A stretch of 24,170 bases of DNA from a virus: IMG/VR virus record IMGVR_UViG_3300025687_004724, positions 1 to 24,170 of that record; one strand, 5' to 3'. Both the position numbers and the translations under genes were made by a program. Below are positions 5,881 through 23,131 of the stretch, piece by piece (the first letter of the stretch is position 1; each line of letters starts with the position of its first letter). The notes beneath the pieces are model-generated. The model made no database searches. It saw nothing but the letters and a program-made list of their open reading frames with translations, and was not told the DNA's origin.

Positions 5881-6267
5881 ATGGGGAAAGTTCTCGAGCA
5901 CAAGCATCTGATCATCAGAGCAGAATTAAATAATCCACCTACATGCACAGACACGATCGAAAATTGGATGCGAGTGCTCGTCGATACCATTGGTATGAAG
6001 ATACTGATGGGCCCATACTCTGTTTATTCTGAGATGGCAGGAAACAAAGGATTAACTGCAGTAACAATCATAGAAACAAGTCATATTGCCATACATGTGT
6101 GGGACGAAGTGCATCCGGCATTAATGCAAATGGATGTCTATACTTGTTCAGCGCTTGACATAAATGATGTGTTCAACGCAATACAAATGTTTGATCCCGC
6201 CAAGACTGAATATAAATTTATTGATAGGGAACAAACATTATTGTTGCGTGATAAAGGAATGTTGTGA
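5881..6267 (+). CDS. speD: S-adenosylmethionine decarboxylase proenzyme
   Basis: A 128-residue pyruvoyl enzyme of the short (Bacillus/Thermotoga) SpeD type that makes decarboxylated SAM, the aminopropyl donor for spermidine. The self-cleavage region reads IETSHIAIHVWDE: Ser67 is the expected pyruvoyl residue, His72 the processing histidine, and Cys89 in DVYTCSA the catalytic cysteine. In cellular enzymes the residue before the cleaved serine is normally Glu; here it is Thr66, with the Glu one place earlier. AAGGAG at 5864-5869 is the ribosome site. SpeD is known as an auxiliary gene in marine T4-like phages. It likely supports polyamine supply for DNA packing or host physiology; that role is inferred. 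Confidence 0.88.
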   Translation: MGKVLEHKHLIIRAELNNPPTCTDTIENWMRVLVDTIGMKILMGPYSVYSEMAGNKGLTAVTIIETSHIAIHVWDEVHPALMQMDVYTCSALDINDVFNAIQMFDPAKTEYKFIDREQTLLLRDKGML

Positions 6268-8268: not shown

Positions 8269-9729
8269 ATGCCAGCAATTTCTAGAGAGATAATCTCTGA
8301 CAACTTTGTAGGGATCAACTTACCTGAAGGTGACTCTTATGATAAGTCGCAATTGGCAGATAAGATCGACAGGTGGAAATATTATCTGGTTGAAAAATGC
8401 TCTGCTAAGAAAGGCGACCGGATTATAATCGGAATTTCCGCTATCTCAGTAGATTTTGTTGCACTATGCTTTGCTGCATTCGAACTTTCTTTGGTCTTGG
8501 TTGTTGCTGCGGATGAACCAATCCGATCAGTTGCTGATAAAACAATTGTTAATCCCAAAACCACCAAGTTGCTGCCTATCGACATTCTGATCTGGGAAAG
8601 TATTCCGGAAGAAGGTGATGAGGTGCTGAGTGCATCAAGGAAATTCAATTTCTATAAACAAAACTGCAGGATTTACAAGAGTCTTGGTGATTTCTACAGA
8701 ACAGAATTTCCAGAAGATCTGGGTCATGCTCCGTCTATAATGCCAGACGAAAATGATCTGTTAATGCTAACAACAAGCAGCGGATCGACTGGGACTGCCA
8801 AACTTGTTGAACACACTCACAAATTCTTCAGATCTCTGTGCGAACGCAACTCTAAAGAATTTTCCGGTAACATTGTGCATTGCAACAACATGCACCATGG
8901 TAGCAGTTTGAGCGTATTCTATTTACCTTCATTGATTAGTGATGACATAACAACGCATTATTTTATACCTTGTTATGAGAATCACTACGATCGTTTTGCT
9001 AGGGACATCAAGGGTATTGATCTGAATCACCTTTCTGTACCGTATATTAAATTCGTGGAAGGTGTTCTTGATGCATTCGTGGAAGAGGATGCTAAGTTTC
9101 CTAACATGCGATTGTCTTTGCTGACGTATGTTCCTTCGTTTTGCAAGAAATTTATTGAAGAAGGGTATATTGCTGAGGTCGAAAGTATCTTTGGTTCGAA
9201 TGAAACTGCTGGTCCAGTTTTTCTGTCGAGAATTAATTCTGAGAACATGAGTAATTATGACAATCGTTTGTTTTATAAACCAGATTCTTTCTATGACATC
9301 ACATTAGATGATGGAGAACTTAGTGTTAAACTCCCTCATTATGAGAAGACAATCAAAACAAATGATTTGTTCTCTTATGATGGTGATTCTTACCGACATA
9401 TGGGTCGTTCGGATCTCGTGAGAATTAATGATGTGACTGTCGATTTTGAGTTCTTTAACAATCTATCACAACAATATCGTAATGACATAATTATTACTAC
9501 TGATGGAATTGAGAATAAAATTTATTTGGTTGTCCAGAGGGATTCTATACTACACAAAAGTATGGAAATGCCCGAATTAATACGGCAATTAGACACAAAG
9601 ATACGAGTATACTATTCTACGGATCGTTTGCAAATAGATAAATACGTTGTTGAGGATTTCTCTGTTTTTTACAGTGGAGTCAAAATAGATAAAGAACTTA
9701 TTAGAGAGTATTTTAAACAACATGTTTAG
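8269..9729 (+). CDS. ANL-superfamily adenylate-forming enzyme (acyl-CoA synthetase / adenylation-domain type)
   Basis: A 486-residue enzyme predicted to activate a carboxylate with ATP as an acyl-AMP, and possibly pass it to a thiol or amine. ANL motifs appear in order: the ATP loop LTTSSGSTGTAKLVEHTH (residues 167-184), FGSNETAG (308-315) in place of YGxTE, the TGD-like TNDLFSYDGD (364-373), the hinge GRSDLVRIND (379-388) and a C-terminal lysine motif GVKIDKEL (470-477). It is slightly shorter than typical ligases (500-550), and the core around residues 190-300 is divergent, so substrate cannot be read. No carrier protein or condensation domain is fused. The first 50 residues are unusual. 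It heads the accessory block, followed by overlapping genes. Function class is fairly firm; substrate and acceptor are unknown. Confidence 0.88.
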   Translation: MPAISREIISDNFVGINLPEGDSYDKSQLADKIDRWKYYLVEKCSAKKGDRIIIGISAISVDFVALCFAAFELSLVLVVAADEPIRSVADKTIVNPKTTKLLPIDILIWESIPEEGDEVLSASRKFNFYKQNCRIYKSLGDFYRTEFPEDLGHAPSIMPDENDLLMLTTSSGSTGTAKLVEHTHKFFRSLCERNSKEFSGNIVHCNNMHHGSSLSVFYLPSLISDDITTHYFIPCYENHYDRFARDIKGIDLNHLSVPYIKFVEGVLDAFVEEDAKFPNMRLSLLTYVPSFCKKFIEEGYIAEVESIFGSNETAGPVFLSRINSENMSNYDNRLFYKPDSFYDITLDDGELSVKLPHYEKTIKTNDLFSYDGDSYRHMGRSDLVRINDVTVDFEFFNNLSQQYRNDIIITTDGIENKIYLVVQRDSILHKSMEMPELIRQLDTKIRVYYSTDRLQIDKYVVEDFSVFYSGVKIDKELIREYFKQHV

Positions 9730-10000
9730 CAAACATCTAGAGAAAAGTAAAGAAACATATATAAGTCATCTAATTTGGGCAATCCTTGCTAGTCTTAGAT
9801 TGCTTTGGGCAGCGATTGCTAGTCTTATTCATGGGTTCTTTCCGAATCTGTTTCCTGGGACAGCAGCGAAGACAGTGATTGACCTATACCACAAACGTCT
9901 AGTCAATCATCCCAATAAAGAATACCAAAAATATATTGATTTCTACGAGAAAAAATATGAAAGAAGAATTAATTCGAAGATTGACTCTGATGCACACTAA
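9722..10000 (+). CDS. DUF6356-like small membrane-associated protein
   Basis: A 92-residue protein whose start overlaps the end of the adenylating-enzyme gene by eight bases. It begins MFSKHLEKSKETYISHLIWAI, then LLWAAIASLIHGFFPNLFP and GTAAKTVIDLYHKRL. This matches the pattern of DUF6356: HL..ETY..H, a hydrophobic region, an IHxxxP turn and a TA/TASxTI helix before a basic end. That family occurs in alphaproteobacteria and marine phages and is uncharacterised. Two hydrophobic helices (about 16-40) suggest membrane contact. Link to the adenylating enzyme is by overlap only. Confidence 0.7.
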   Translation: MFSKHLEKSKETYISHLIWAILASLRLLWAAIASLIHGFFPNLFPGTAAKTVIDLYHKRLVNHPNKEYQKYIDFYEKKYERRINSKIDSDAH

Positions 10001-10112
10001 TCTTATGAATGAGGCAACAGAGGCAAGAACACGAGGAGGAACAATGGCGATGAAAATCGGTTCTCGTGCGAAGTTGATTAAAGAAACCATTGACTTTCTC
10101 GAAAAAATATAG
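9957..10112 (+). CDS. Small helical protein, 51 residues
   Basis: An ATG at 9957 inside the 3' end of the DUF6356-like gene (44-base overlap) opens a frame ending at TAG 10110-10112. The product is basic and amphipathic, KEELIRRLTLMHTNLMNEATEARTRG then KIGSRAKLIKETIDFLEKI, consistent with two helices. No motif or family is recognised. The following promoter -10 starts directly after its stop codon. Coding is supported by the uninterrupted frame and by its filling the gap, not by homology. Confidence 0.6.
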   Translation: MKEELIRRLTLMHTNLMNEATEARTRGGTMAMKIGSRAKLIKETIDFLEKI

Positions 10113-10120
10113 TATAAATA
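10090..10120 (+). promoter_or_regulatory. Composite sigma70-like / TATAAATA late-type promoter
   Basis: TTGACT (10090-10095), a 17-base spacer, then TATAAATA (10113-10120), which is both a good -10 and a perfect T4 late core. The ATG of the next gene is at 10127, so a transcript from here would have almost no leader. Confidence 0.65.
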
Positions 10121-10126
10121 TTTTTA

Positions 10127-10690
10127 ATGCAGTTTGTAAAGACCATAGACACAGACATTTTGAGTTCTAGATTGAAGGCAGAGGTCTATCAACTTCTGAA
10201 CGAGCATCAACTACTTGAAAAGACACAAGTGAGTCTGACCAGCATAAATGGCGACAATAATTGGGATGAGTCGACGGGAAAACTTCACTCGCTCTCTCAT
10301 GAAGAGAAATCCTACTCTAAACTAAACGTCGCGCTGACTGACACATACATCGCAGAACTTCTAGCAAGATATCCAGAGTATTATCGTTGGCGACTTCTGC
10401 GGATAAATCCACGTTCATGCTATAGCATACACACAGACAAACTATTAGGGAATACCATGAACGTTCGTCTTCACATTCCTGTGGTTACGAACGATAATGC
10501 ATTTCTATGTTTTTTCTCTCAACGTCCCGTCGGGAGTTCTACGCAAATGGTGCGATATGAGCATCTTTCAGAGGGTAAAAGTTATCGCGTGAACACCACC
10601 GGATTTCATACTGCAGTAAATCATGGACTCGAACCAAGATACCACATAGTGGGAGTTAAGTATGAAGATAGCGATAACTGGTCACTCTAG
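10127..10690 (+). CDS. Aspartyl/asparaginyl beta-hydroxylase-like 2OG-Fe(II) oxygenase
   Basis: A 187-residue protein. The C-terminal half has the iron and 2-oxoglutarate signature of the Asp/Asn hydroxylase (AspH-like) branch: RINPRSCYSIHTD with His102 and Asp104, RLHIPVVTNDNAF, then NTTGFHTAVNHG with His161, and EPRYHIVGV with Arg171 as the expected 2OG-binding arginine. The N-terminal 80 residues are a helical lead-in. Such enzymes hydroxylate amino-acid side chains or free amino acids using O2 and 2OG, releasing succinate. It overlaps the SDR start by 29 bases, so the two are co-translated. Substrate is unknown. A role in modifying the product of the neighbouring adenylating enzyme is a guess from context. 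Confidence 0.78.
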   Translation: MQFVKTIDTDILSSRLKAEVYQLLNEHQLLEKTQVSLTSINGDNNWDESTGKLHSLSHEEKSYSKLNVALTDTYIAELLARYPEYYRWRLLRINPRSCYSIHTDKLLGNTMNVRLHIPVVTNDNAFLCFFSQRPVGSSTQMVRYEHLSEGKSYRVNTTGFHTAVNHGLEPRYHIVGVKYEDSDNWSL

Positions 10691-11201
10691 TGGCATAGGT
10701 AAAGCAATCGCCGACGCATATCCCTTGGTGGTTGGATTTAGTCGTGGAAACGGATATGATATATCTGATCCAAAAACAATCGATAGAATTCTAGAAGAGA
10801 TCGATGACTGTGATGTGTTCGTAAACAATGCACACAGTGGTAATGCGCAACTTCAAATCTTTCAGAAACTATTGAAGAAGTGGCGTGATGATAATACCAA
10901 GACGATCGTCAACATCAACAGCAAAACCATCTATAACAAACCAAACAATCGGCAGTATACGACCGAAAAGAAATTCCTGAGATCTGCTGCGATCGATGCT
11001 ATCAATGACATAGAACGAAAGTGTCGTGTCATCAACATCAATGTTGGATATGTTACCACTAGTAGAGTTTCTCATTTGATCGGGAAACAACCGATGTTAT
11101 TCCCAGAAGAAATAGCAACCATGATCAAGTGGTGCATAGATAAACCTCTAAACATAGAGGTCGGAGAATTATCCGTTTGGTCGAAAGATATTATGGTTTG
11201 A
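10662..11201 (+). CDS. Short-chain dehydrogenase/reductase (SDR)
   Basis: A 179-residue, compact SDR. The nucleotide-binding TGHSSGIG (residues 6-13, TGxxxGxG), the NNAHSG element (55-60), Ser87 in NINSKT and the YxxxK pair Tyr99/Lys103 (QYTTEK) are all present, so an active NAD(P)-dependent oxidoreductase is likely. It is about 60-70 residues shorter than classical SDRs; the substrate-binding region after Lys103 is reduced. It overlaps the upstream 2OG oxygenase by 29 bases. Its stop overlaps the end of the convergent protease gene by 11 bases. Substrate unknown; a sugar, polyol or hydroxy acid would all fit. Confidence 0.85.
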   Translation: MKIAITGHSSGIGKAIADAYPLVVGFSRGNGYDISDPKTIDRILEEIDDCDVFVNNAHSGNAQLQIFQKLLKKWRDDNTKTIVNINSKTIYNKPNNRQYTTEKKFLRSAAIDAINDIERKCRVININVGYVTTSRVSHLIGKQPMLFPEEIATMIKWCIDKPLNIEVGELSVWSKDIMV

Positions 11202-12912
11202 AAGCTGTTGTTATGCCGGTTCGCGCATTACTTACTCCGGAAGTGGATCTTTCTGTCTCTAATGCTGCAGCAAGATCAGAATCATAACTATAATCTGTAG
11301 AGTCTCTGTCTGGGTCTGTAGCAAAAAAGAACATTGGGTTGGAATATTCTACCCCAGATGTAGAAGTTTGCTTCACTTTAAATTTTACAACTTCGAGCGT
11401 CTTACCTTCGGGCAGTGGTATATTTGGTTTGGTAATTGTTACCGCTGCTGTTGATGCATCCAACGCAACGAATTCTTCATACTTTAATCTAATATCTTCG
11501 TCTAACCATACCAACTCATATGAACACGGTTCCCCGAATGGGTCAATAGATCCTTCGAAATTGTAATTATAGACATTATATGTTATTTCGGTAAGATCGC
11601 CGTTGAAGTATCCCAGATACAAGTTAATGTTCAAAGTATCCAACGGCACAGAACCATCAATCAAGTGAACCATTCTATTTGCGTCTACGAATTTTTCTGT
11701 GTCCAACAACAGAATGTTTTGTGTAGAATCATTTATCAGAATTTGTAAGATCGACACTGGAGTCTGAAGCGATGGAGCGACTGCCATAATAGCAGAGGCA
11801 GCGCCTGTGACATATGCTGCTGATGCAGAGGTACCAGTCGGTCTGATATAGTTTCCATCATAATTCGCAACAGTTACCTCGACACCAGGAGCAAAGATGT
11901 CAACGAGTTGACCGAAGTTAGAGTCTACTTGCACCGCCGAGAAATTGTTGAAACCTGCAGCGATATCGTCGATGTCAGACGCAGCGACTGTAATTACATT
12001 CGGCAATCCAGCAGGGGTATAGTTCTCCACATTATCACCGAAGTTACCTGCTGCCGCGACAACAGTTACACCGGAATCAATCAATCGCTGAAACTTTTCA
12101 TCTAGATAGAAACTCTTTGTTGCCACCCACGAACAGTTTACAACTCTTGGTGTGCTAGGATCTGCGTCGTGATGTGCTCGAATCGCATCCAATGCTTGAC
12201 CAACTTCTAATAGAGAAGGTTTTTCAGAACCATCAAAAATCTTGACACTCATCAACTTCACATAATGCTGAAGTCCGGTGTTTACGCCAGCAACAGCAGA
12301 TGCCATAGCAGTGCCGTGACCAGTTGTATCAGCGAACGACTCAGCATATTTCTCTAGTGTGAAGAACTGAACCTTCTCTGTGTTGGGATCGCTAAATTCT
12401 ACATGGTCGAAATTTATACCTGAGTCCACGATAAAGACTTCAGGTTTTGTCTTGTAATCTGATTCTGCGATTTTGCGAAATTCCGTTGGGAGTGGTCTGA
12501 ATCTACCAGCAATACGCAGTCTTGCCCAATTAGCATTTTCATCGGCAAGAGTTACTGGCGAACCTTCAATCTCAGACATCAATTTGACAGGTGCATTGGC
12601 AGGATCCATTTTACCCGCGACTGCATCATACAGAGATAGGGGATCTTCCGTTGCGACGATATATGTGCCATCACCGAAATCCTGCACCACAACCAATTCC
12701 ACAGTCAGTGCGCTGATGTCAGCAGTTCTAATTATAAATTCCTCAGCACCTTCGCCGGAAACTGCTACAGAAACAACCGAATTATCCATCTTGATGGTGG
12801 TTAGAAGCGAGATCGGTGTGTTGATAGTCTCGCTGCCCGATGGTGTCAACCCACATTTGTTTGCGAATGCAGTACAAGCAGCAGCATCAGCGAATGTTAC
12901 AATATATTCCAT
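11191..12912 (-). CDS. Subtilisin-like serine protease (S8 family), reverse strand
   Basis: A 573-residue protein, the only clear minus-strand gene. The catalytic triad is intact: Asp163 (FIVDSGINFDH), His199 (DTTGHGTAMASAVAG) and Ser362 (PTGTSASAAYVTG), with oxyanion Asn290 (AAAGNFGDN). The first 140 residues are not protease-like and contain no signal peptide; they may be a pro-domain or virion-attachment region. About 190 residues after the catalytic domain look beta-rich, with a TSTSGVEYSNPMFF segment, and may be a beta-sandwich. The gene is preceded on its own strand by TATAAATA (12954-12947) and AAGGA, suggesting late expression and a virion or lysis-stage role. A virion-associated protease is my best guess; a virion assembly protease or host-directed protease cannot be excluded. 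Confidence 0.9.
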   Translation of the reverse strand: MEYIVTFADAAACTAFANKCGLTPSGSETINTPISLLTTIKMDNSVVSVAVSGEGAEEFIIRTADISALTVELVVVQDFGDGTYIVATEDPLSLYDAVAGKMDPANAPVKLMSEIEGSPVTLADENANWARLRIAGRFRPLPTEFRKIAESDYKTKPEVFIVDSGINFDHVEFSDPNTEKVQFFTLEKYAESFADTTGHGTAMASAVAGVNTGLQHYVKLMSVKIFDGSEKPSLLEVGQALDAIRAHHDADPSTPRVVNCSWVATKSFYLDEKFQRLIDSGVTVVAAAGNFGDNVENYTPAGLPNVITVAASDIDDIAAGFNNFSAVQVDSNFGQLVDIFAPGVEVTVANYDGNYIRPTGTSASAAYVTGAASAIMAVAPSLQTPVSILQILINDSTQNILLLDTEKFVDANRMVHLIDGSVPLDTLNINLYLGYFNGDLTEITYNVYNYNFEGSIDPFGEPCSYELVWLDEDIRLKYEEFVALDASTAAVTITKPNIPLPEGKTLEVVKFKVKQTSTSGVEYSNPMFFFATDPDRDSTDYSYDSDLAAALETERSTSGVSNARTGITTAFKP

Positions 12913-12946
12913 TAAGAGTTTCCTTGTTTATGGAGGTTTGTCCTAT

Positions 12947-12954
12947 TATTTATA
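12947..12954 (-). promoter_or_regulatory. Late-type promoter core (TATAAATA) for the protease gene
   Basis: Reads TATAAATA on the minus strand (TATTTATA on the plus strand), 35 bases upstream of the protease ATG (12912). No -35 box is visible, as expected for T4-type late promoters read with phage gp55-like sigma and the sliding clamp. A ribosome site AAGGA follows on the same strand. Confidence 0.65.
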
Positions 12955-12958
12955 ATGG

Positions 12959-12966
12959 TATAAATA
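12959..12966 (+). promoter_or_regulatory. Late-type promoter core (TATAAATA) for the PP-loop gene
   Basis: A perfect TATAAATA with no recognisable -35 box. The expected start is near 12973, followed by GAGGT (12976-12980) and the ATG at 12991. It is separated by only four bases from the opposite-strand copy at 12947-12954. Confidence 0.65.
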
Positions 12967-12990
12967 TGAGCAAGCGAGGTAAATTCTGTA

Positions 12991-13935
12991 ATGATAAAAT
13001 TTCATGACTACTGGTTGCAGCGAAATTATGCTGATGGTATCCTGACTTGGAAACTAAATTTAACACCAGAACAGATAAAATCTATTGACATTAATTCAAT
13101 TTACGAGTATTCTATAGAGGCAGTTACGTCGTTGCTGCCAGATCTCGGCGACAATCCCGCGATCTGTTTTAGCGGTGGCATAGACAGTCAAGTGATGCTT
13201 GAGTGTTTCCTGCGTGCAGGTGTCGATGTTACCATAGTCATCATGAGGTTTTCTAGTGGATTAAATGACCGCGACATAAAGACTGCAGTTGAATATTGCG
13301 AACGAAGGCAATTGAATTATAGATTTTTAGATCTAAATGTCACTAACTTCCTCGAGCGCGAGTTGCCGAGTTTTTCTGACAGATATGATGTTAGCAGTCC
13401 ACAATTCGCAACGCATTTTAAGATGTTTGAGATTTTAAAAGATAGTGGATTCTCATCAGCGATCGCTGCAGGAAACCCTGTGTCCAAATCTCTGAAAAAG
13501 TGGTATCTACCAACCAAAGAGGCAAGCGATTGGATTAAATTTTCAGATGACATCCAATGGAATATAATCGGAGACTTTCTCTTGCATAATTGGAGATTCT
13601 CTTTGTTACTGGGGTGCCTCTATGAAGAGAGCGGGGAAATGCCTAGTGGATTCCAAGCAATCAGAGATAAAGTTTACAAATTTAAGACCATAAGTTATAG
13701 ATCTGCCGATTTTGATATTATCCCACAGGAAACTAAGTTTACTGGATTCGAACAAGTCAAAGAGTATTACCATAAATCTACGGGCGACGGATGGTCTTTT
13801 GAAAAAAGATTTCGTTTTCCTCTACAAATTAAGAATGGTTCAACAGAGAAAATTGTTTTAGATGCCTCTGATGATCAGTTGAGTGCTTTGGAGTCACTAT
13901 ATGATAGATGCGCGAATCTCAGAAATCTCGTTTGA
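12991..13935 (+). CDS. PP-loop ATP pyrophosphatase (asparagine synthase-like or related)
   Basis: A 314-residue protein with the PP-loop motif FSGGIDSQVML at residues 60-70, which binds ATP and releases pyrophosphate in enzymes that adenylate a carboxyl or carbonyl oxygen (asparagine synthase B, NAD synthetase, QueC, thiouridylases). After it, VTIVIMRFSSGLNDRDIKTAVEYCERRQLNYRFLDLN gives the alternating beta-alpha pattern of the Rossmann-like core. There is no N-terminal glutaminase domain, cysteine pair or rhodanese domain, so sulfur transfer of the ThiI/TtcA sort is not indicated. The C-terminal half is rich in aromatics and unfamiliar. It has its own late-type promoter and overlaps the acetyltransferase gene by 35 bases. 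Substrate is not readable. Confidence 0.82.
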   Translation: MIKFHDYWLQRNYADGILTWKLNLTPEQIKSIDINSIYEYSIEAVTSLLPDLGDNPAICFSGGIDSQVMLECFLRAGVDVTIVIMRFSSGLNDRDIKTAVEYCERRQLNYRFLDLNVTNFLERELPSFSDRYDVSSPQFATHFKMFEILKDSGFSSAIAAGNPVSKSLKKWYLPTKEASDWIKFSDDIQWNIIGDFLLHNWRFSLLLGCLYEESGEMPSGFQAIRDKVYKFKTISYRSADFDIIPQETKFTGFEQVKEYYHKSTGDGWSFEKRFRFPLQIKNGSTEKIVLDASDDQLSALESLYDRCANLRNLV

Positions 13936-14371
13936 AGAAATAACTCCATTCTGGTTAAACCTGTGGTGGTGGCACACACCAGAAACTCTTGAGAGATTCA
14001 GTTATATGCGGTTCGGTGGTGGACACTTCAATGAAGTTAAAGATCCTGAGATAGCATACTTTGGGATCCAGTCTCGTGGTGAGATCGTGGGTGTTAACAG
14101 TATACACACTCTACCCGATGGAACCTGTCGCAGTAGAGGTTTGTGGGTCGATCCAACCCACAGAGGTAAAGGATTGGGTTTTGCATTATTGCACCACAGC
14201 ATTGGTTGGGCAGAAAACAGAGGGTTCTGGTCTTGGAGTTATCCGAGAGAAAGTAGTTTAGACACATATCTCTCTGCTGGATACGAATCTTCATCAGACT
14301 GGATTGTTTCAGAACATGGAATAAAAAACAAATTTGTTCGAAAATCCCTTGACAAACTGGTTGAAATATAG
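13901..14371 (+). CDS. GNAT-family N-acetyltransferase
   Basis: A 156-residue protein from the ATG at 13901, with GGAG at 13889-13892 in good spacing; a GTG at 13883 is possible but has a worse site. The acetyl-CoA motif RGLWVDPTHRGKGLGFALLHHSIGWAENRGF (residues 88-118) contains the R/QxxGxG loop as HRGKGLG, followed by a helix and the ARNRG-like turn. The N-terminal NLWWWHTPETLERFSYMRFGGGHF is unusual for its tryptophans. It overlaps the PP-loop gene by 35 bases, so the two enzymes are probably made together. The acceptor amine is unknown. Confidence 0.88.
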   Translation: MIDARISEISFEEITPFWLNLWWWHTPETLERFSYMRFGGGHFNEVKDPEIAYFGIQSRGEIVGVNSIHTLPDGTCRSRGLWVDPTHRGKGLGFALLHHSIGWAENRGFWSWSYPRESSLDTYLSAGYESSSDWIVSEHGIKNKFVRKSLDKLVEI

Positions 14372-14614: not shown

Positions 14615-14620
14615 TTGATT

Positions 14621-15850
14621 ATGGGCGAGAAGCGAAATTACTCCGAAGCGGATGTAGCGAGACTTCGTGGAACGTTTGGCATCGAACACACGAGGGCAAA
14701 ACAAGGCGCACTGGATTTTCGAACCCTTCTTGCCTCAGAGCCGTTCGTTCGCACATTCGGGGCGTACAACGGTCAACAAGCAGTTCAACATGTGAAGGCA
14801 GGTCTTAGGGCAATCTATGTTTCGGGTTGGCAGGTAGCAGCTGCTCACAACTCTACGCAACAGACATATCCGGATCAGAGTCTGTATGCTGTTGACTCTG
14901 TGCCTAATGCGGTTCGCTCGATCCAGAATGCTTTCCGCAGGCAAGATCAAATTCAAGTTGTGGAAGGTATGTCATTTAGAGATCCTGATTATCGGATGTG
15001 GGGTAATGTTCCTATCATTGCTGATGCTGAAGCAGGTTTCGGTGGTGCATTGAATGCATACGAACTAACTCGTAGTCTGATTGAGGCAGGTGCTGCTGCA
15101 GTACACTTCGAAGATCAATTGGCAGCGGAAAAGAAATGTGGTCACCTTGGCGGTAAGGTTCTCATTCCCACTTCGCAGGCAATTCGTAATCTCAATGCAG
15201 CGCGACTTGCTTCTGATGTTGAACGTACTGACACAGTAATCATTGCTCGTACTGATGCGGAAGCTGCTAGACTACTTTTATCGGATATCGATGATGTGGA
15301 CAAGAAGTTCCTTACAGGTAAGAGGACAGAAGAAGGATTTTATGAAATCACTGGTGGAATGGAGATGGGTTGTGAACGTGGCCAAGCGTTCGCTGAATAC
15401 GCCGACCTAGTCTGGTGTGAGACATCTAAACCATGTCTCAAGGAAGCCAAGCAATTCGCTGATGCTGTCCGAGGTGCCTTCCCAGATCAACTGCTGGCGT
15501 ATAACTGTTCACCTTCGTTTAATTGGAAGCAACATCTTCCATCAGATACAGAACTTGCAGAGTTTCAAACAGAACTTGGTAAGATGGGATTTAAGTTCCA
15601 GTTTATCACTCTTGCTGGATTTCACTCAACAAACTATGCGGTGTTTGACTTTGCTAAGCAATATGCACAAGATGGTATGCTCGCGTATTCGAATTTACAA
15701 CAAAAAGAGTTTGCAGCCCTTGATCAAGGATTTACGTCTGTCAAGCACCAGCGAGAGGTTGGGGTTGGATACTTCGATGCAATCTCTCAGGCTGTAGGCG
15801 CTAGTTCTGTTGCTGCTCTAAAAGATTCTACAGAATCTGAACAATTCTAA
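14621..15850 (+). CDS. aceA: Isocitrate lyase
   Basis: A complete 409-residue enzyme that splits isocitrate to glyoxylate and succinate (glyoxylate shunt). The signature KKCGHLGGKV with catalytic Cys173 (residues 171-180) is the isocitrate lyase form, not the KRCGH of methylisocitrate lyase. Also present are the metal-binding ADAEAGFGG (134-142), the substrate loops SGWQVAA and YNCSPSFNWKQH, and the family's C-terminal ending STESEQF. Length is near E. coli AceA (434). The start at 14621 has GAAGGGAA upstream; a TTG at 14615 is less suitable. No malate synthase or isocitrate dehydrogenase kinase lies in the window. A phage would gain glyoxylate and succinate from host isocitrate while bypassing CO2 loss. 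It is not frame-damaged, so it looks functional. Confidence 0.96.
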   Translation: MGEKRNYSEADVARLRGTFGIEHTRAKQGALDFRTLLASEPFVRTFGAYNGQQAVQHVKAGLRAIYVSGWQVAAAHNSTQQTYPDQSLYAVDSVPNAVRSIQNAFRRQDQIQVVEGMSFRDPDYRMWGNVPIIADAEAGFGGALNAYELTRSLIEAGAAAVHFEDQLAAEKKCGHLGGKVLIPTSQAIRNLNAARLASDVERTDTVIIARTDAEAARLLLSDIDDVDKKFLTGKRTEEGFYEITGGMEMGCERGQAFAEYADLVWCETSKPCLKEAKQFADAVRGAFPDQLLAYNCSPSFNWKQHLPSDTELAEFQTELGKMGFKFQFITLAGFHSTNYAVFDFAKQYAQDGMLAYSNLQQKEFAALDQGFTSVKHQREVGVGYFDAISQAVGASSVAALKDSTESEQF

Positions 15851-17875: not shown

Positions 17876-19342
17876 ATGCGCCTGTTGATTCTTTCAGACC
17901 TCGCGAGTAGATATACTAGAGCAGGTTTACTACGAAATAATTCTAGGTTGGCAGGTCCCATGTGGATCTGCCAACTTGTTCGTAAGCATGGTGCAGTAGC
18001 AGAAACCATAGATTATTTTCGCCAATGGGAAGAACAGGAATTGGTGGATTCCATAATCAAATTCTTCGGCAAAGATCCAGAAATATACCTCGGTACCAGC
18101 GGTAGCGTCGACGATGGAAATACCACCTATTTCAAACAGATATGCGAACAGGTTCGCGAAAGACTACCGCATCTCAAGGTTATCCTCGGTGGATACAGAG
18201 TTGCTACTGGTGATGCCAGTTGGGTTGACGCCAGTTTCATCGGCAGATGTTCAAATTTGGTAGAAGATTATTTCTGTGGCAAAGATATCTCCGTCTCTAA
18301 AATATCCAACGATCCACCGACGTATAAGAATCCATACAACATTATTCTCGAGGAACCGATCGCGCCATTGGTTTCAGAACACGATTTCATAGACTCCCGA
18401 GAATTGCTTACGATCGAACTTGGACTGGGTTGTAAATTCAATTGTGCTTTCTGTGGATTTGACTATAGAAACAATCGTCGACCTGTCATCAACACTGTCC
18501 AGAATGTATATGACGCATGCCAATCCGCATATGACATGTATGGGGTAACAAACTTTTATCTGGCAGATGACACCATCAACGAAGTGGATGATAAGTTAGA
18601 ACTGCTCGGTGAAGTCTGTAAGAAACTCTCATATAAACCGAACTTTATGGCATTCGCTCGCCTCGACATCATTGGTGCTAAAAAACATCAGGTAGATCTA
18701 CTGAGAGAGGCAAATATAAACACGCTGTTCTTTGGTATCGAAAGTCTCAATCCCACAGTCACAAAGAGCATTCGTAAGGGTGGAAACCCAGAGAGAAACT
18801 ATGATGCGCTGCGATATATCAAGCAGGAATACAGTGATGCATTCACATATGGTAACTTTATCGCAGGATTGGCAGGCGACAGTGAAGAAGGAATACACGA
18901 CAGCGTCGATAAAATTATCGATGAACAACTGTTGACCAGTGCTGGAATTAATCCTCTGCGTATTTACTCTAGGATAGACAATCCCGACAGTCAGAGTGAG
19001 ATAGACAAGAACCCAGCAAAGTATGGATATACAATCCTAGAGGGTGGTAAATTCGCAGGTCAGTATGGTTACGATGCTGACAACTGGAGCAATGATTGGT
19101 GCGACAACAATAAAGCAGAAGAAATTAGCATAGCAGTGGAACAAAAATTCGCCAGCGGTCTGGAGAGCATATACACTGCGCATGAGTTTGCGGGTATAAA
19201 ATCCCTACTTCCTGGGTATGGAGTCTCAGATTATAACAAACTGATTTACCTCGCGAACAGGACGCAAGAGCATATGATTGTAAAAAAATACATCAGAGAC
19301 AAAAAAAACACACTTAGAAGCTTGACTATTTCGTTATCATAG
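17876..19342 (+). CDS. Radical SAM protein with B12-binding-like N-terminal domain
   Basis: A 488-residue protein. The cluster motif CKFNCAFC (Cys186, Cys190, Cys193) binds the 4Fe-4S cluster and SAM, and FFGIESLNPTVTKSIRKGG (about 283-301) is the typical later barrel strand. The first 150 residues form a Rossmann-like region with VILGGYRVA (102-110), as in cobalamin-type radical SAM enzymes, but no DxHxxG cobalamin motif is seen, so cofactor binding is unproven. The C-terminal 130 residues have no recognisable extra cluster motif. Such enzymes methylate or rearrange carbon skeletons in natural products, lipids or nucleotides. Substrate is unknown. It starts four bases after the FmdB-like gene. 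Confidence 0.88.
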   Translation: MRLLILSDLASRYTRAGLLRNNSRLAGPMWICQLVRKHGAVAETIDYFRQWEEQELVDSIIKFFGKDPEIYLGTSGSVDDGNTTYFKQICEQVRERLPHLKVILGGYRVATGDASWVDASFIGRCSNLVEDYFCGKDISVSKISNDPPTYKNPYNIILEEPIAPLVSEHDFIDSRELLTIELGLGCKFNCAFCGFDYRNNRRPVINTVQNVYDACQSAYDMYGVTNFYLADDTINEVDDKLELLGEVCKKLSYKPNFMAFARLDIIGAKKHQVDLLREANINTLFFGIESLNPTVTKSIRKGGNPERNYDALRYIKQEYSDAFTYGNFIAGLAGDSEEGIHDSVDKIIDEQLLTSAGINPLRIYSRIDNPDSQSEIDKNPAKYGYTILEGGKFAGQYGYDADNWSNDWCDNNKAEEISIAVEQKFASGLESIYTAHEFAGIKSLLPGYGVSDYNKLIYLANRTQEHMIVKKYIRDKKNTLRSLTISLS

Positions 19343-20331: not shown

Positions 20332-20569
20332 TTATATCTCTGAGTGTTTGATGTATTGCGACGACGAGTCAGATGTGATAGCACTAGGGGCCGTTCTTCA
20401 AATTATCTCCAAGAATATAATAGCAGCAGCGACAGACAAAGAGTGTTGGAAAAACTCAGTGACCAGATATGTCAGGGATGTGATGAATGAACCTGACATT
20501 GAACATAAAAAGAGAAGAAGGCAGAGAGACAGTGTTCCTGCTGAGAACTATAAGGGAATCTATTGGTAA
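20246..20569 (+). CDS. Unrecognised 107-residue protein overlapping dCMP deaminase
   Basis: The frame is open from 20225, with ATGs at 20225, 20246, 20276 and 20312; none has a strong ribosome site, so the start is unresolved. From 20246 it overlaps the deaminase by 86 bases. The product is helical with an acidic start (MMEEMDDYISECLMYCDDESD) and a basic end (HKKRRRQRDSVPAEN). It has a middle hydrophobic run (IALGAVLQIISKNIIAAA). No family is recognised. It is certain from about 20330 onward, where no other gene covers the frame. Confidence 0.65.
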   Translation: MDNKRHQHLNMTPSEKQENRLAMMEEMDDYISECLMYCDDESDVIALGAVLQIISKNIIAAATDKECWKNSVTRYVRDVMNEPDIEHKKRRRQRDSVPAENYKGIYW

Positions 20570-21147
20570 TGTTGAGATTTGGTAATATCTTCTTGTTTAA
20601 GAAAGCATTCACACCCACCAGATGCGAAGAGTTTATTCATGAGCAAATCGTAAAACCGATGCAGCAAAGTATGGTTTATGGTGGAAAAGATGATCTTAAC
20701 ATCGACCATAGAAACTCAGAACAATGTAAAATCATGCCAGAGAATCCATTTTGCCGTGATGTAGCAAGATTCGTTCGCATGGTGAATGACGACTTCTTGA
20801 ACATCAATGTTTTTGAATACTGTTCTGAAAATTCTTTTATTCGATACAACGAGGGTGGAAGATTTAACAGACACAAAGATGTATTATGGCAGGCAGATAC
20901 TGTCAACCATATCTCGAGACCCATAAGAAAAATCTCTGCCATTTGTCTTCTCTCAGAAAGAGAAACCTTTGAGGGTGGTAAGTTTGTAACTTACGACAAC
21001 ACTAAACCATTCAATGCGCAAAGAACTTCATATGATTTTGATGTCGGCGACCTTATTATCTTCCCTTCGTATGTCGAACATCAAGTTGAAGAAATCACTC
21101 AGGGAATCAGGTATTCAACTGTGCATTGGTCACATGGTGGGTTCTGA
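20569..21147 (+). CDS. 2OG-Fe(II) oxygenase (prolyl-4-hydroxylase-like)
   Basis: A 192-residue enzyme with the P4H-type signature: RFNRHKDVLW with His102 and Asp104 as iron ligands, FPSYVEHQVEEI with His171, and GIRYSTVHW with Arg181 for 2OG. NSFIRYNEGGRF before the HxD pair is typical of phage PKHD-type hydroxylases. Such proteins are frequent in T4-like marine phages, where they may modify phage or host proteins or DNA. The start in the TAATG overlap at 20569 is preferred over a TTG at 20563. It is distinct from the AspH-like oxygenase at 10127-10690. Confidence 0.88.
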   Translation: MLRFGNIFLFKKAFTPTRCEEFIHEQIVKPMQQSMVYGGKDDLNIDHRNSEQCKIMPENPFCRDVARFVRMVNDDFLNINVFEYCSENSFIRYNEGGRFNRHKDVLWQADTVNHISRPIRKISAICLLSERETFEGGKFVTYDNTKPFNAQRTSYDFDVGDLIIFPSYVEHQVEEITQGIRYSTVHWSHGGF

Positions 21148-21171: not shown

Positions 21172-21372
21172 ATGCAGAATGTCGGTTATCTCGAATATGT
21201 TTTAGGAGACTCAATGTCTAAGGATGAAAATTTCATCGCTGGTTTGTGTGAGGAATCAGCGACCAAGATGTCAAATAACTGGAATGACATCGTCCAGTAT
21301 TGCAGGAACTATGAGCAAAACTCCCGAGGAAGAGGGAATAGAGAGAGGAATGCTCATTATGATCCAAGGTAA
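21172..21372 (+). CDS. Unrecognised 66-residue protein
   Basis: ATG at 21172 is preceded by GGAGA (21162-21166); an ATG at 21160 lies on that site. The product MQNVGYLEYVLGDSMSKDENF has an acidic helical half and then a basic, Arg/Asn-rich tail (NSRGRGNRERNAHYDPR). It sits between the 2OG oxygenase and the cupin and overlaps the cupin start by about 14 bases. No family is recognised. Confidence 0.55.
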   Translation: MQNVGYLEYVLGDSMSKDENFIAGLCEESATKMSNNWNDIVQYCRNYEQNSRGRGNRERNAHYDPR

Positions 21373-21712
21373 GGTTTGGGGTAAGACACAGTTGGTGCAC
21401 ACCAACAATTGTTTTGAATTTCATCGCATTGAGTTCGAGAAGGATCATGAGTGTTCGGTACACCTTCACAAGACAAAGTCTAATGGTTTCTTCGTGGAGT
21501 CTGGGCAACTTCTAATTCGCGTGTGGCAGGATGACGATCAGGATGGTCTGGTTGATGAGACAATCGTGAATCCTGGAGAATTTACCATTGTCCCTCCCAT
21601 GAAGAAGCACCAGTTTGTTGGTCTAAAGAGTGGTGTCGCATTTGAGTTGTATTGGGCAGAGTATGATCCCAACGACATCGTTCGTTTTTCGATCGGTAAG
21701 AAATGCGACTAA
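21359..21712 (+). CDS. Cupin-fold protein next to kdsA, possible sugar isomerase
   Basis: A 117-residue single cupin. HLH (His35, His37) and Glu47 in FFVESG give motif 1, and NPGEFTIVPPMKKHQF with His84 gives motif 2, so a metal site (three His and one Glu) is likely. I chose ATG 21359 because GAGAGAGGA (21339-21348) lies about 10 bases upstream; longer forms from 21311 are possible. It overlaps the kdsA start by 10 bases and kdsA overlaps kdsB, so it belongs to the Kdo operon. Cupin sugar isomerases and epimerases are known, for example D-lyxose isomerase. Producing or binding arabinose 5-phosphate, the KdsA substrate, is an attractive guess but not shown. Confidence 0.78.
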   Translation: MIQGKVWGKTQLVHTNNCFEFHRIEFEKDHECSVHLHKTKSNGFFVESGQLLIRVWQDDDQDGLVDETIVNPGEFTIVPPMKKHQFVGLKSGVAFELYWAEYDPNDIVRFSIGKKCD

Positions 21713-22467
21713 TTGCTGGCCCCTGCCAACACGAATCCCTCTCACAAAGTCTAGAGATCGCACGCGAGGGTATGCGTGTTGCAACTCTGTTTGGTATGAA
21801 ATATTTCTTCAAGGCAAGTTACGATAAGGCAAACAGAACACACATCTCAGGTAAGAGGGGACTGGGACTAGAGCAGACGATGCTCGACTTTGCCGCGATG
21901 AAGCAGGAACTTCCTGGACTGAAGATCCTCACAGATGTCCACGAGATTGGGCAGATAGATGCGATTAAAGACTTCGTCGATGTCATACAGATCCCTGCGT
22001 TTCTGTGTAGGCAGACTGATCTTATCAAAGCAGCAGTGGACACAGGTAAAATCGTCAACATCAAAAAAGGTCAGTTTCTGGCACCATGGGATGTCGGTGG
22101 TATCCTCTCCAAAACAGAAGGTGCTGAAGAGGTCTGGATTACCGAGAGAGGCACAAGTTTCGGATACAACAATCTGGTTGTGGATTTTTGCGGTATAAGA
22201 TATATGCTGGACAATTATGATGTTCCCATCGTATTTGATGCCACGCACTCAACGCAGAAACCAAGCGCATCTGGAAATGCATCAGGTGGTAATCGTGCAT
22301 ATGCACACCACCTCGCCAAATCTGCTGCCGCGATGGGTGTGAAGAACTTCTTCCTAGAGGTTCATCCTGACCCTGACAATGCACCGAGCGATGGTCCTAA
22401 CATGGTTTATCTACATGATCTAGAGAGAATTATGTATGAAGTCGAATGCCATATTGATCCCTGCTAG
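21703..22467 (+). CDS. kdsA: 3-deoxy-8-phosphooctulonate synthase (Kdo-8-P synthase), metal-dependent type
   Basis: A 254-residue aldolase-type enzyme that joins phosphoenolpyruvate and arabinose 5-phosphate. IAGPCQHES (residues 4-12) carries Cys8, which is the metal ligand of the metal-dependent (Aquifex-like) class; the E. coli enzyme has Asn there. The other ligands fit His182 (DATHS), Glu219 (FFLEVHPDP) and Asp230 (PSDGPN). KASYDKANR (38-45) is the PEP-binding signature, and IPAFLCRQTDL is conserved. It begins directly at the barrel start, shorter by about 25 residues than E. coli (284). It lies between the cupin and kdsB with overlaps on both sides, so all are one operon. Confidence 0.95.
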   Translation: MRLIAGPCQHESLSQSLEIAREGMRVATLFGMKYFFKASYDKANRTHISGKRGLGLEQTMLDFAAMKQELPGLKILTDVHEIGQIDAIKDFVDVIQIPAFLCRQTDLIKAAVDTGKIVNIKKGQFLAPWDVGGILSKTEGAEEVWITERGTSFGYNNLVVDFCGIRYMLDNYDVPIVFDATHSTQKPSASGNASGGNRAYAHHLAKSAAAMGVKNFFLEVHPDPDNAPSDGPNMVYLHDLERIMYEVECHIDPC

Positions 22468-23131
22468 ATACGGCAGCACAAGATTCCCAGCAAAACCTCT
22501 CGCCAAACTCGGCGAACAAACAATGATCGAGCGTGTCTTTTGGAGATGCGCTCGATCAGACATAGACACATTCGTTTTAACTGATAACGAAGAAATCTAC
22601 AATCTGATACCAGAGGGTCATGCTCTTCTCGACGACACACCATATAACAATGGAACGGAGAGATGCGCTGGTGCCATACGTCATCCGATGTTTGTCGATT
22701 ATAACTTCTTCATCAATGTGCAGGGCGATATGCCCGATATCTCCTATCAGGCGATCTATGGAGTTATAACGACACACACCATAGGAGACTATGAGGTTAC
22801 TACTGCATGCACCACTATGCCAGAAGATGAGCAGAATGATCCGAATGTTGTCAAGATAGTTCGTAGCAAGAATCACGCACTGTGGTTTGGGAGAGGTATC
22901 ACTGGATATGGAGAGAGGCACCTTGGCGTGTATGGATACACGAGACGTGCGCTCGATACATATGGAAAGAAGAATCCCTGTGTAGCGGAGATCGGCGAGG
23001 GACTCGAGCAGTTGCGCTGGTTGTATGCAGATATCCCCATCGGAGTCACGTGGGTTGAGTTTGATGGTGTCGAGATAAACGTTCCCGACGACATAAAAAA
23101 GTGGGAAAAAAATCAAAAAAAGATGATTTGA
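22436..23131 (+). CDS. kdsB: CMP-Kdo synthetase (3-deoxy-manno-octulosonate cytidylyltransferase)
   Basis: A 231-residue nucleotidyltransferase that activates Kdo as CMP-Kdo. The N-terminal AILIPARYGSTRFPAKPLA (residues 5-23) is the nucleotide-binding signature, and NVQGDMP (94-100) matches the conserved NVQGDEP with Asp98 kept but Met99 replacing Glu. NNGTERCAGAI fits the sugar-binding GTxR region. It overlaps kdsA by 32 bases. The last 10 codons are Lys-rich and at the same time form the A-tract of the next promoter. Together with kdsA it gives two consecutive steps to CMP-Kdo; the phosphatase KdsC and arabinose-5-P isomerase KdsD are not visible, unless the cupin serves the latter. Confidence 0.93.
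   Translation: MKSNAILIPARYGSTRFPAKPLAKLGEQTMIERVFWRCARSDIDTFVLTDNEEIYNLIPEGHALLDDTPYNNGTERCAGAIRHPMFVDYNFFINVQGDMPDISYQAIYGVITTHTIGDYEVTTACTTMPEDEQNDPNVVKIVRSKNHALWFGRGITGYGERHLGVYGYTRRALDTYGKKNPCVAEIGEGLEQLRWLYADIPIGVTWVEFDGVEINVPDDIKKWEKNQKKMI

Follow-up and report, generated by a model that had tools for sequence, protein, structure and literature searches.

Protein-modifying PP-loop ATPases were recognised lately, in bacterial anti-phage defence. Cap9, a member of the QueC family, couples the N-terminal glycine in the flexible tail of its partner protein with 7-carboxy-7-deazaguanine; for QatC, an equivalent reaction on a flexible tail has been suggested (PMC13279940, PMC11996544). Here, we analysed a 24,170-nt stretch of DNA (IMG/VR record IMGVR_UViG_3300025687_004724; the whole stretch is called the window below), whose genes belong to an uncultured tailed phage that shares features with T4. 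In the window, a PP-loop ATPase gene neighbours the gene of a protease, an S8 subtilase (Table 1). The closest structural matches of this ATPase are beta-lactam synthetase and asparagine synthetase B (AsnB), enzymes in which ATP activates a carboxylate and an amine then attacks it. Searches of the open-access literature turned up nothing relevant to subtilases with PP-loop partners in phages, and the QueC family review mentions no protease.

Related loci were collected by scanning IMG/VR with single proteins and then with alignments, and wider scans brought the total to 276 loci. The survey was seeded from the window's own family, using the best 80 of 234 subtilase matches and the best 80 of 111 PP-loop matches, and the loci are fragments. 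In the first IMG/VR scans, every locus with a PP-loop relative also had an S8 relative, usually together with a GNAT acetyltransferase unless the contig ended. A PP-loop gene was present in the locus for 74 of 75 non-redundant subtilases, the exception (L184) being cut at its 5' end. The partner belonged to the AsnB-like family of the window in 56 cases, was a QueC-like protein encoded directly upstream in 18, and was cut off in one. The open frames of subtilase and PP-loop protein were separated by a median gap of 4 bp, and 55 pairs lay within 100 bp. Starting from the PP-loop side, 49 of 52 non-redundant loci had an S8 gene close by, and of the three others, one is truncated by the end of its contig. 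The conserved unit is a subtilase and a dedicated PP-loop ATPase, with a GNAT acetyltransferase as a frequent third member. A sequence-only reading of the window had noticed the protease but set it aside; it is the minus-strand core of this unit.

Gene order and strand of the pair varied among loci. The window has the order AspH-SDR-(S8)-PP-GNAT, L015 has PP-S8-GNAT, L006 has AspH-PP-(MPE)-S8-2OG-GNAT and L008 has (GNAT)-AspH-PP-(MPE)-S8-2OG, where 2OG denotes a 2-oxoglutarate oxygenase and MPE, in L006, a metallophosphoesterase-like gene on the opposite strand. By inspection, L018 (8902-11231) and L019 (3551-6432) have a GlnE-domain nucleotidyltransferase, one or more 2OG oxygenases and a sulfotransferase-like gene inserted between the PP-loop and S8 genes. 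The AsnB-like and QueC-like profiles align over just 23 columns, around the SGGxDS ATP motif, and the partner class switches twice on the S8 tree. With two PP-loop families and a partner class that changed twice, common descent by itself can hardly account for the pairing. In three loci (L073, L074 and L092), AsnB-like and QueC-like ATPases both lie beside one subtilase.

The window subtilase has an N-terminal domain of ~120 aa, a catalytic domain, a beta-rich (cadherin/Ig-like) C-terminal domain and a short tail. Its catalytic triad (D163, H199, S362) and oxyanion Asn (N290) were invariant in 12 relatives, in line with S8 membership. The family profile matched proteinase K and PCSK9 chains in the PDB at E about 1e-36, and VPR was also among the best sequence matches. 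The structure model had a predicted local distance difference test score (pLDDT) of 74.5, with a confident, prodomain-like N-terminal domain, and no evident signal peptide was found in the sequence.

The tails changed faster than the catalytic domains, with 29% identity (Cys and Gly left out) versus 58%. Two tail classes were distinguished by their cysteines, and both followed a lysine rule. Cysteine counts were even (4, 6, 8 or 10) in all 31 Cys-rich tails. None of these tails lacked lysine and 28 had a single one, a lysine pattern reached by none of 20,000 shuffles. The variance-to-mean ratio of their lysine counts was 0.08, compared with values near 1 for most other residues. Among the 43 Cys-poor tails, 39 (91%) had a lysine among the last two residues; the window tail, ending in Phe-Lys-Pro, is one such case. 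A general genome bias towards C-terminal lysine was ruled out, as only 18.8% of 575 neighbouring open reading frames (ORFs) had a lysine there (P 3e-24 versus the Cys-poor tails). The rule held in 10/10 Cys-rich and 15/18 Cys-poor tails when the set was thinned to <45% identity, and it persisted through seven tail-class changes on the tree. For an independent-pairs test of partner class versus tail class, few changes were available. In the window, the subtilase and SDR genes overlap by 11 bases at their 3' ends, and the last three subtilase codons lie within this overlap or at its edge.

A lysine in such a position could have a role in binding or in the structure of a tip that recognises the host, with the PP-loop enzyme acting on tRNA, DNA or a metabolite and the two genes being co-inherited only. 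This explanation would fit the rapid evolution of the C-terminal region, as the 95 aa before the tail were 27% identical compared with 58% in the catalytic region, and also the fact that nucleotides and tRNA are common PP-loop substrates. However, it does not predict a near-universal adjacency that outlasts reshuffling of order and strand, nor two unrelated PP-loop families in the same slot, and no recurring tRNA- or DNA-modification partner genes were seen at the loci. We consider it unlikely.

The PP-loop protein of the window (314 aa) belongs to the PP-loop ATP pyrophosphatase (HUP) superfamily, with its SGGxDS motif in a Rossmann-like fold. Pfam gave merely weak QueC and ATP_bind_3 matches. 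On the QueC profile (PF06508, cut-off 22 bits) the protein scored 18.0 bits, and it has no CxxCxxC motif; L159, representing the QueC-like partners of other loci, scored 27.8 bits. Two motifs, SGGxDSQ and TGDGWxFE, were conserved across 14 relatives. In the structure model (pLDDT 88), the fold is that of carboxylate-adenylating amide formers, and the top PDB folds were the synthetase domains of beta-lactam synthetase (1mc1) and AsnB (1ct9), at E about 4e-6 and moderate structural similarity. An N-terminal glutaminase domain, or a remnant of one, is absent: the ATP motif sits at residues 61-66 and there is no second domain.

An amide-forming fold would also suit a cross-linking reaction, in which the PP-loop enzyme adenylates an Asp or Glu carboxylate and an isopeptide bond forms with the lysine; the carboxylate would sit in the same tail or in another protein of the virion. 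AsnB-like PP-loop enzymes of lasso peptide biosynthesis form amides from protein or peptide carboxylates, a precedent that counts for this idea together with the window enzyme's match to amide-forming synthetases. A Lys-Asp/Glu ring within the tail is not general, because many tails have no acidic residue: Asp and Glu were absent from 5/31 Cys-rich tails and from the last 12 residues of 36/43 Cys-poor tails. A bond to another protein is conceivable. Overall, cross-linking seems improbable to us.

Accessory enzymes differed between locus types. Of the QueC-type loci, 15 had enough flanking sequence, and 12 of these contained a Sulfotransfer_2-like gene, compared with 0/52 AsnB-like loci, a distribution which indicates that accessory enzymes track tail or partner class. 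These genes (L176:8257-8928, L159:9078-9695 and similar) go with Cys-rich tails, and Tyr occurs in 11/12 of such tails. Short Cys-rich tails that change fast and hold even numbers of cysteines, with tailoring enzymes close by, recall ribosomally synthesized and post-translationally modified peptides. The tail would then be a core peptide, tailored by the PP-loop enzyme, sulfotransferase, GNAT and oxygenases, and the protease domain would release it as a bioactive peptide. However, in many cases, the window included, a conserved domain is followed by no more than a few variable residues, and no conserved cleavage motif precedes the tail. Neither a separate precursor or export gene nor a recurring short ORF was seen beside the pair (among ORFs of at least 70 aa), and no leader-recognition domain turned up, although no dedicated test for one was made. 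We regard a peptide pathway of this kind as quite unlikely.

The GNAT gene was found in 25 of the 75 non-redundant S8 loci, and it also occurs alone. The window copy has a GNAT domain with the motif RGKGLG. GNAT was rejected as a universal modifier of the lysine, as it is absent from most loci, including all 18 of the QueC type, yet the lysine stays. Among 71 loci with GNAT relatives, 37 had neither PP-loop nor S8 gene (within L212-L276). In 14 GNAT-only loci, the gene lies upstream of recurring genes that resemble, on inspection, those for a T4-type neck and baseplate, a hint that some virion protein is acetylated.

A protein with a flexible tail, a near-invariant amine in that tail and a dedicated PP-loop ATPase is the arrangement found in Cap9 and QatC, and on this basis we propose a lysine-directed conjugation. 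The module, as it would operate in many uncultured tailed phages, consists of two genes. The subtilase would be made without a signal peptide, and its fast-evolving C-terminal tail would usually hold a single lysine. With ATP, the PP-loop enzyme would adenylate a carboxylate on a small molecule or a protein, and the activated carboxylate would be transferred as an amide onto the side-chain amine of the tail lysine. The lineage-variable enzymes nearby (GNAT, AspH-type and other 2OG oxygenases, sulfotransferase) probably modify the same protein or neighbouring virion proteins. Once modified, the protease would most likely work outside the cell, in the virion or freed at lysis. We hold this explanation, with the joining of an activated carboxylate to the tail lysine of the partner subtilase as its central step, tentatively, at slightly less than an even chance. 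The wider picture, a viral protein-modification system on which two unrelated PP-loop families converged and in which the other enzymes decorate the same protease, is also tentative, and somewhat less probable.

Several observations weigh against lysine conjugation. The fold matches of the PP-loop model had merely moderate template modelling scores (TM-scores, 0.43-0.47). The lysine rule was broken in 4/43 Cys-poor tails, two of which end in an apparent Hint domain, and instead of being modified, the lysine may serve to bind a receptor or a metal. Part of the subtilase/PP-loop linkage could stem from vertical inheritance. Subtilases farther from this family might be partnerless, as the survey started from the family and took its best matches. 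Six S8 genes of greater distance, taken from phage-collection records, had no PP-loop neighbours. The subtilase is probably a virion or lysis-released protein, a placement that rests on domain hints. Two family subtilases (L114, L199) end in an S74 tail-spike chaperone domain, the C-terminal domain is beta-rich, there are fold matches to tail proteins, and 13 loci have a gene with a PAAR motif close by.

For positions 8,269 to 14,371, the sequence-only reading had joined an ANL adenylating enzyme, the AspH-like oxygenase, the SDR, the PP-loop ATPase and the GNAT protein into one pathway for a small molecule or a surface sugar. All five genes are present where that reading had placed them, with catalytic motifs that look intact, and the overlaps it described are real for ANL/DUF6356, AspH/SDR and PP-loop/GNAT; its gene list had missed the DUF6356 gene inside the block. 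By inspection, the ANL protein keeps motifs A3, A5, A7 and A10 (TSSGSTGTAK, GSNETAG, MGRSDLVRI and SGVKIDKE) and the PP-loop SGGxDSQ is invariant, so that a loss of catalytic residues, one of the outcomes named as fatal to the pathway, did not occur.

The pathway failed on co-occurrence. In IMG/VR, an ANL relative was found solely in IMGVR_UViG_3300007541_004890, a contig near-identical to the first 15.6 kb of the window (99.9% identity). None was found in 12 related virus records, which is weak evidence, as these are fragments and were searched with a single sequence. DUF6356 has a stand-alone copy, 77% identical, in the ClpX/ClpP neighbourhood of another phage, and an SDR relative adjoins speD in a third phage. 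Scattered and independent occurrence, the other outcome named as fatal to the pathway, was therefore seen for these members. The window AspH has the HTD motif and the distal His. It is of another subtype than the AspH gene that directly precedes the PP-loop gene in many relatives: the two are ~22% identical, and the profile of the module AspH does not match it. Given the missing ANL relatives and the DUF6356 and SDR relatives elsewhere, the ANL, DUF6356, SDR and this AspH subtype look like local cargo, by sequence comparison without linked counterparts in related viruses. Linkage was borne out for PP-loop, S8 and GNAT, which lie close together in unrelated backgrounds. For the ANL, DUF6356, SDR and AspH genes it was not, as they never accompany the module in related loci. 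The idea of one pathway across the block was thus rejected by the co-occurrence comparison; the closeness and overlapping ends of the genes in a single virus speak for it, but it is very improbable. Modification of the virion by products of the block, also suggested earlier, is still plausible.

No relatives of the window ANL, PP-loop, SDR, AspH or GNAT proteins were found in 50,697 cultured-phage records. A related AspH, used in the same search, gave a homologue in pelagiphage Mosig, which shows that the search can work. Cellular relatives of the PP-loop or DUF6356 proteins were not confirmed in two GTDB genome scans, which is weak evidence given the narrow patterns used.

Table 1 Location of the subtilase, its PP-loop partner and the surrounding genes in the window.
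Feature	Position	Strand	Profile match and remarks
ANL adenylating enzyme	8269-9729	+	PF00501, 34.8 bits (cut-off 29.9); not in conserved module
DUF6356 protein	9722-10000	+	PF19883, 56.8 bits; neighbour outside conserved module
AspH-like 2OG oxygenase	10127-10690	+	PF05118, 21.2 bits, just below cut-off of 22.6; module membership uncertain
Short SDR	10662-11201	+	PF00106, above cut-off; 3' end overlaps 3' end of S8; outside module
S8 subtilase, proteinase K type, 573 aa	11191-12912	-	PF00082, 94.3 bits
Codon of K572, tail lysine, proposed acceptor	11197-11199	-	Subtilase ends ...ARTGITTAFKP
PP-loop ATPase, AsnB/beta-lactam-synthetase-like, no glutaminase domain	12991-13935	+	Cognate partner of the subtilase
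GNAT acetyltransferase	13901-14371	+	PF00583, 47.7 bits (cut-off 20.7); frequent third member

Elsewhere, the window encodes a ribonucleotide reductase, a glutaredoxin, an S-adenosylmethionine decarboxylase, three tRNAs, a peroxiredoxin and a radical SAM protein. The decarboxylase gene, speD (5881-6267), overlaps a NUMOD3-containing gene; both are kept in relatives, where an SDR relative lies beside speD. The radical SAM protein (17876-19342) has a 32% identical relative that adjoins clpP in another phage. An isocitrate lyase (14615-15850) occurs in this one phage together with KdsA-like (21703-22467) and KdsB-like (22436-23131) enzymes; aceBA and kdsA have previously been reported in a T4-like marine virus (PMC5332604). 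A second 2OG oxygenase (20563-21147) and a cupin protein (21224-21712) are encoded upstream of the Kdo-type genes.

The block had been described as foreign to standard T4-like cargo, which is true only in part. Accessory islands of marine T4-like phages hold similar genes: pelagiphage Mosig (MT647606) carries two AspH, GNAT, redox and radical-SAM-type genes by its tail-fibre gene. This island of ~12 kb (L048, MT647606.1 54373-66939) contains a carbamoyltransferase, two aminotransferases, two AspH, a GNAT, a desaturase and a MoaA-type gene, and a sugar or fibre decoration pathway is possible there. If the phage pair does modify proteins, a plausible role would emerge for part of the oxygenases, acetyltransferases and sulfotransferases that aquatic T4-like phages encode, so far without explanation, in their variable islands. 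The protease, carried in the virion or released at lysis, would then be chemically armed.

Compared with proteinase K-type subtilases, the phage subtilase has the same invariant triad and oxyanion Asn. It differs in having no evident signal peptide, an extra C-terminal beta domain, a fast-changing lysine tail and a near-obligate PP-loop neighbour. The window ATPase shares its fold match and the ATP pyrophosphatase motif with asparagine synthetase B and beta-lactam synthetase, but it lacks the glutaminase-like domain, has the TGDGWxFE motif and almost always stands beside a subtilase. We know of no C-terminal TGDGWxFE motif in either synthetase. The block did not qualify as a defence or counter-defence system, with no relevant PADLOC match, and the module is neither type IV CBASS (cyclic oligonucleotide-based anti-phage signalling system) nor qatABCD, as the partner is a subtilase and does not start with MGG or MGT. 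With Cap9 of type IV CBASS and QatC of qatABCD, the phage module has in common a PP-loop ATPase and one partner with a flexible terminal tail. In the phage module, however, the partner is a subtilase, the candidate amine is a lysine near the C-terminus instead of an N-terminal glycine, and the window enzyme is AsnB-like, not QueC. The module is found in phages and not in bacterial defence, and the pair points to a second, virus-encoded use of protein-modifying PP-loop enzymes.

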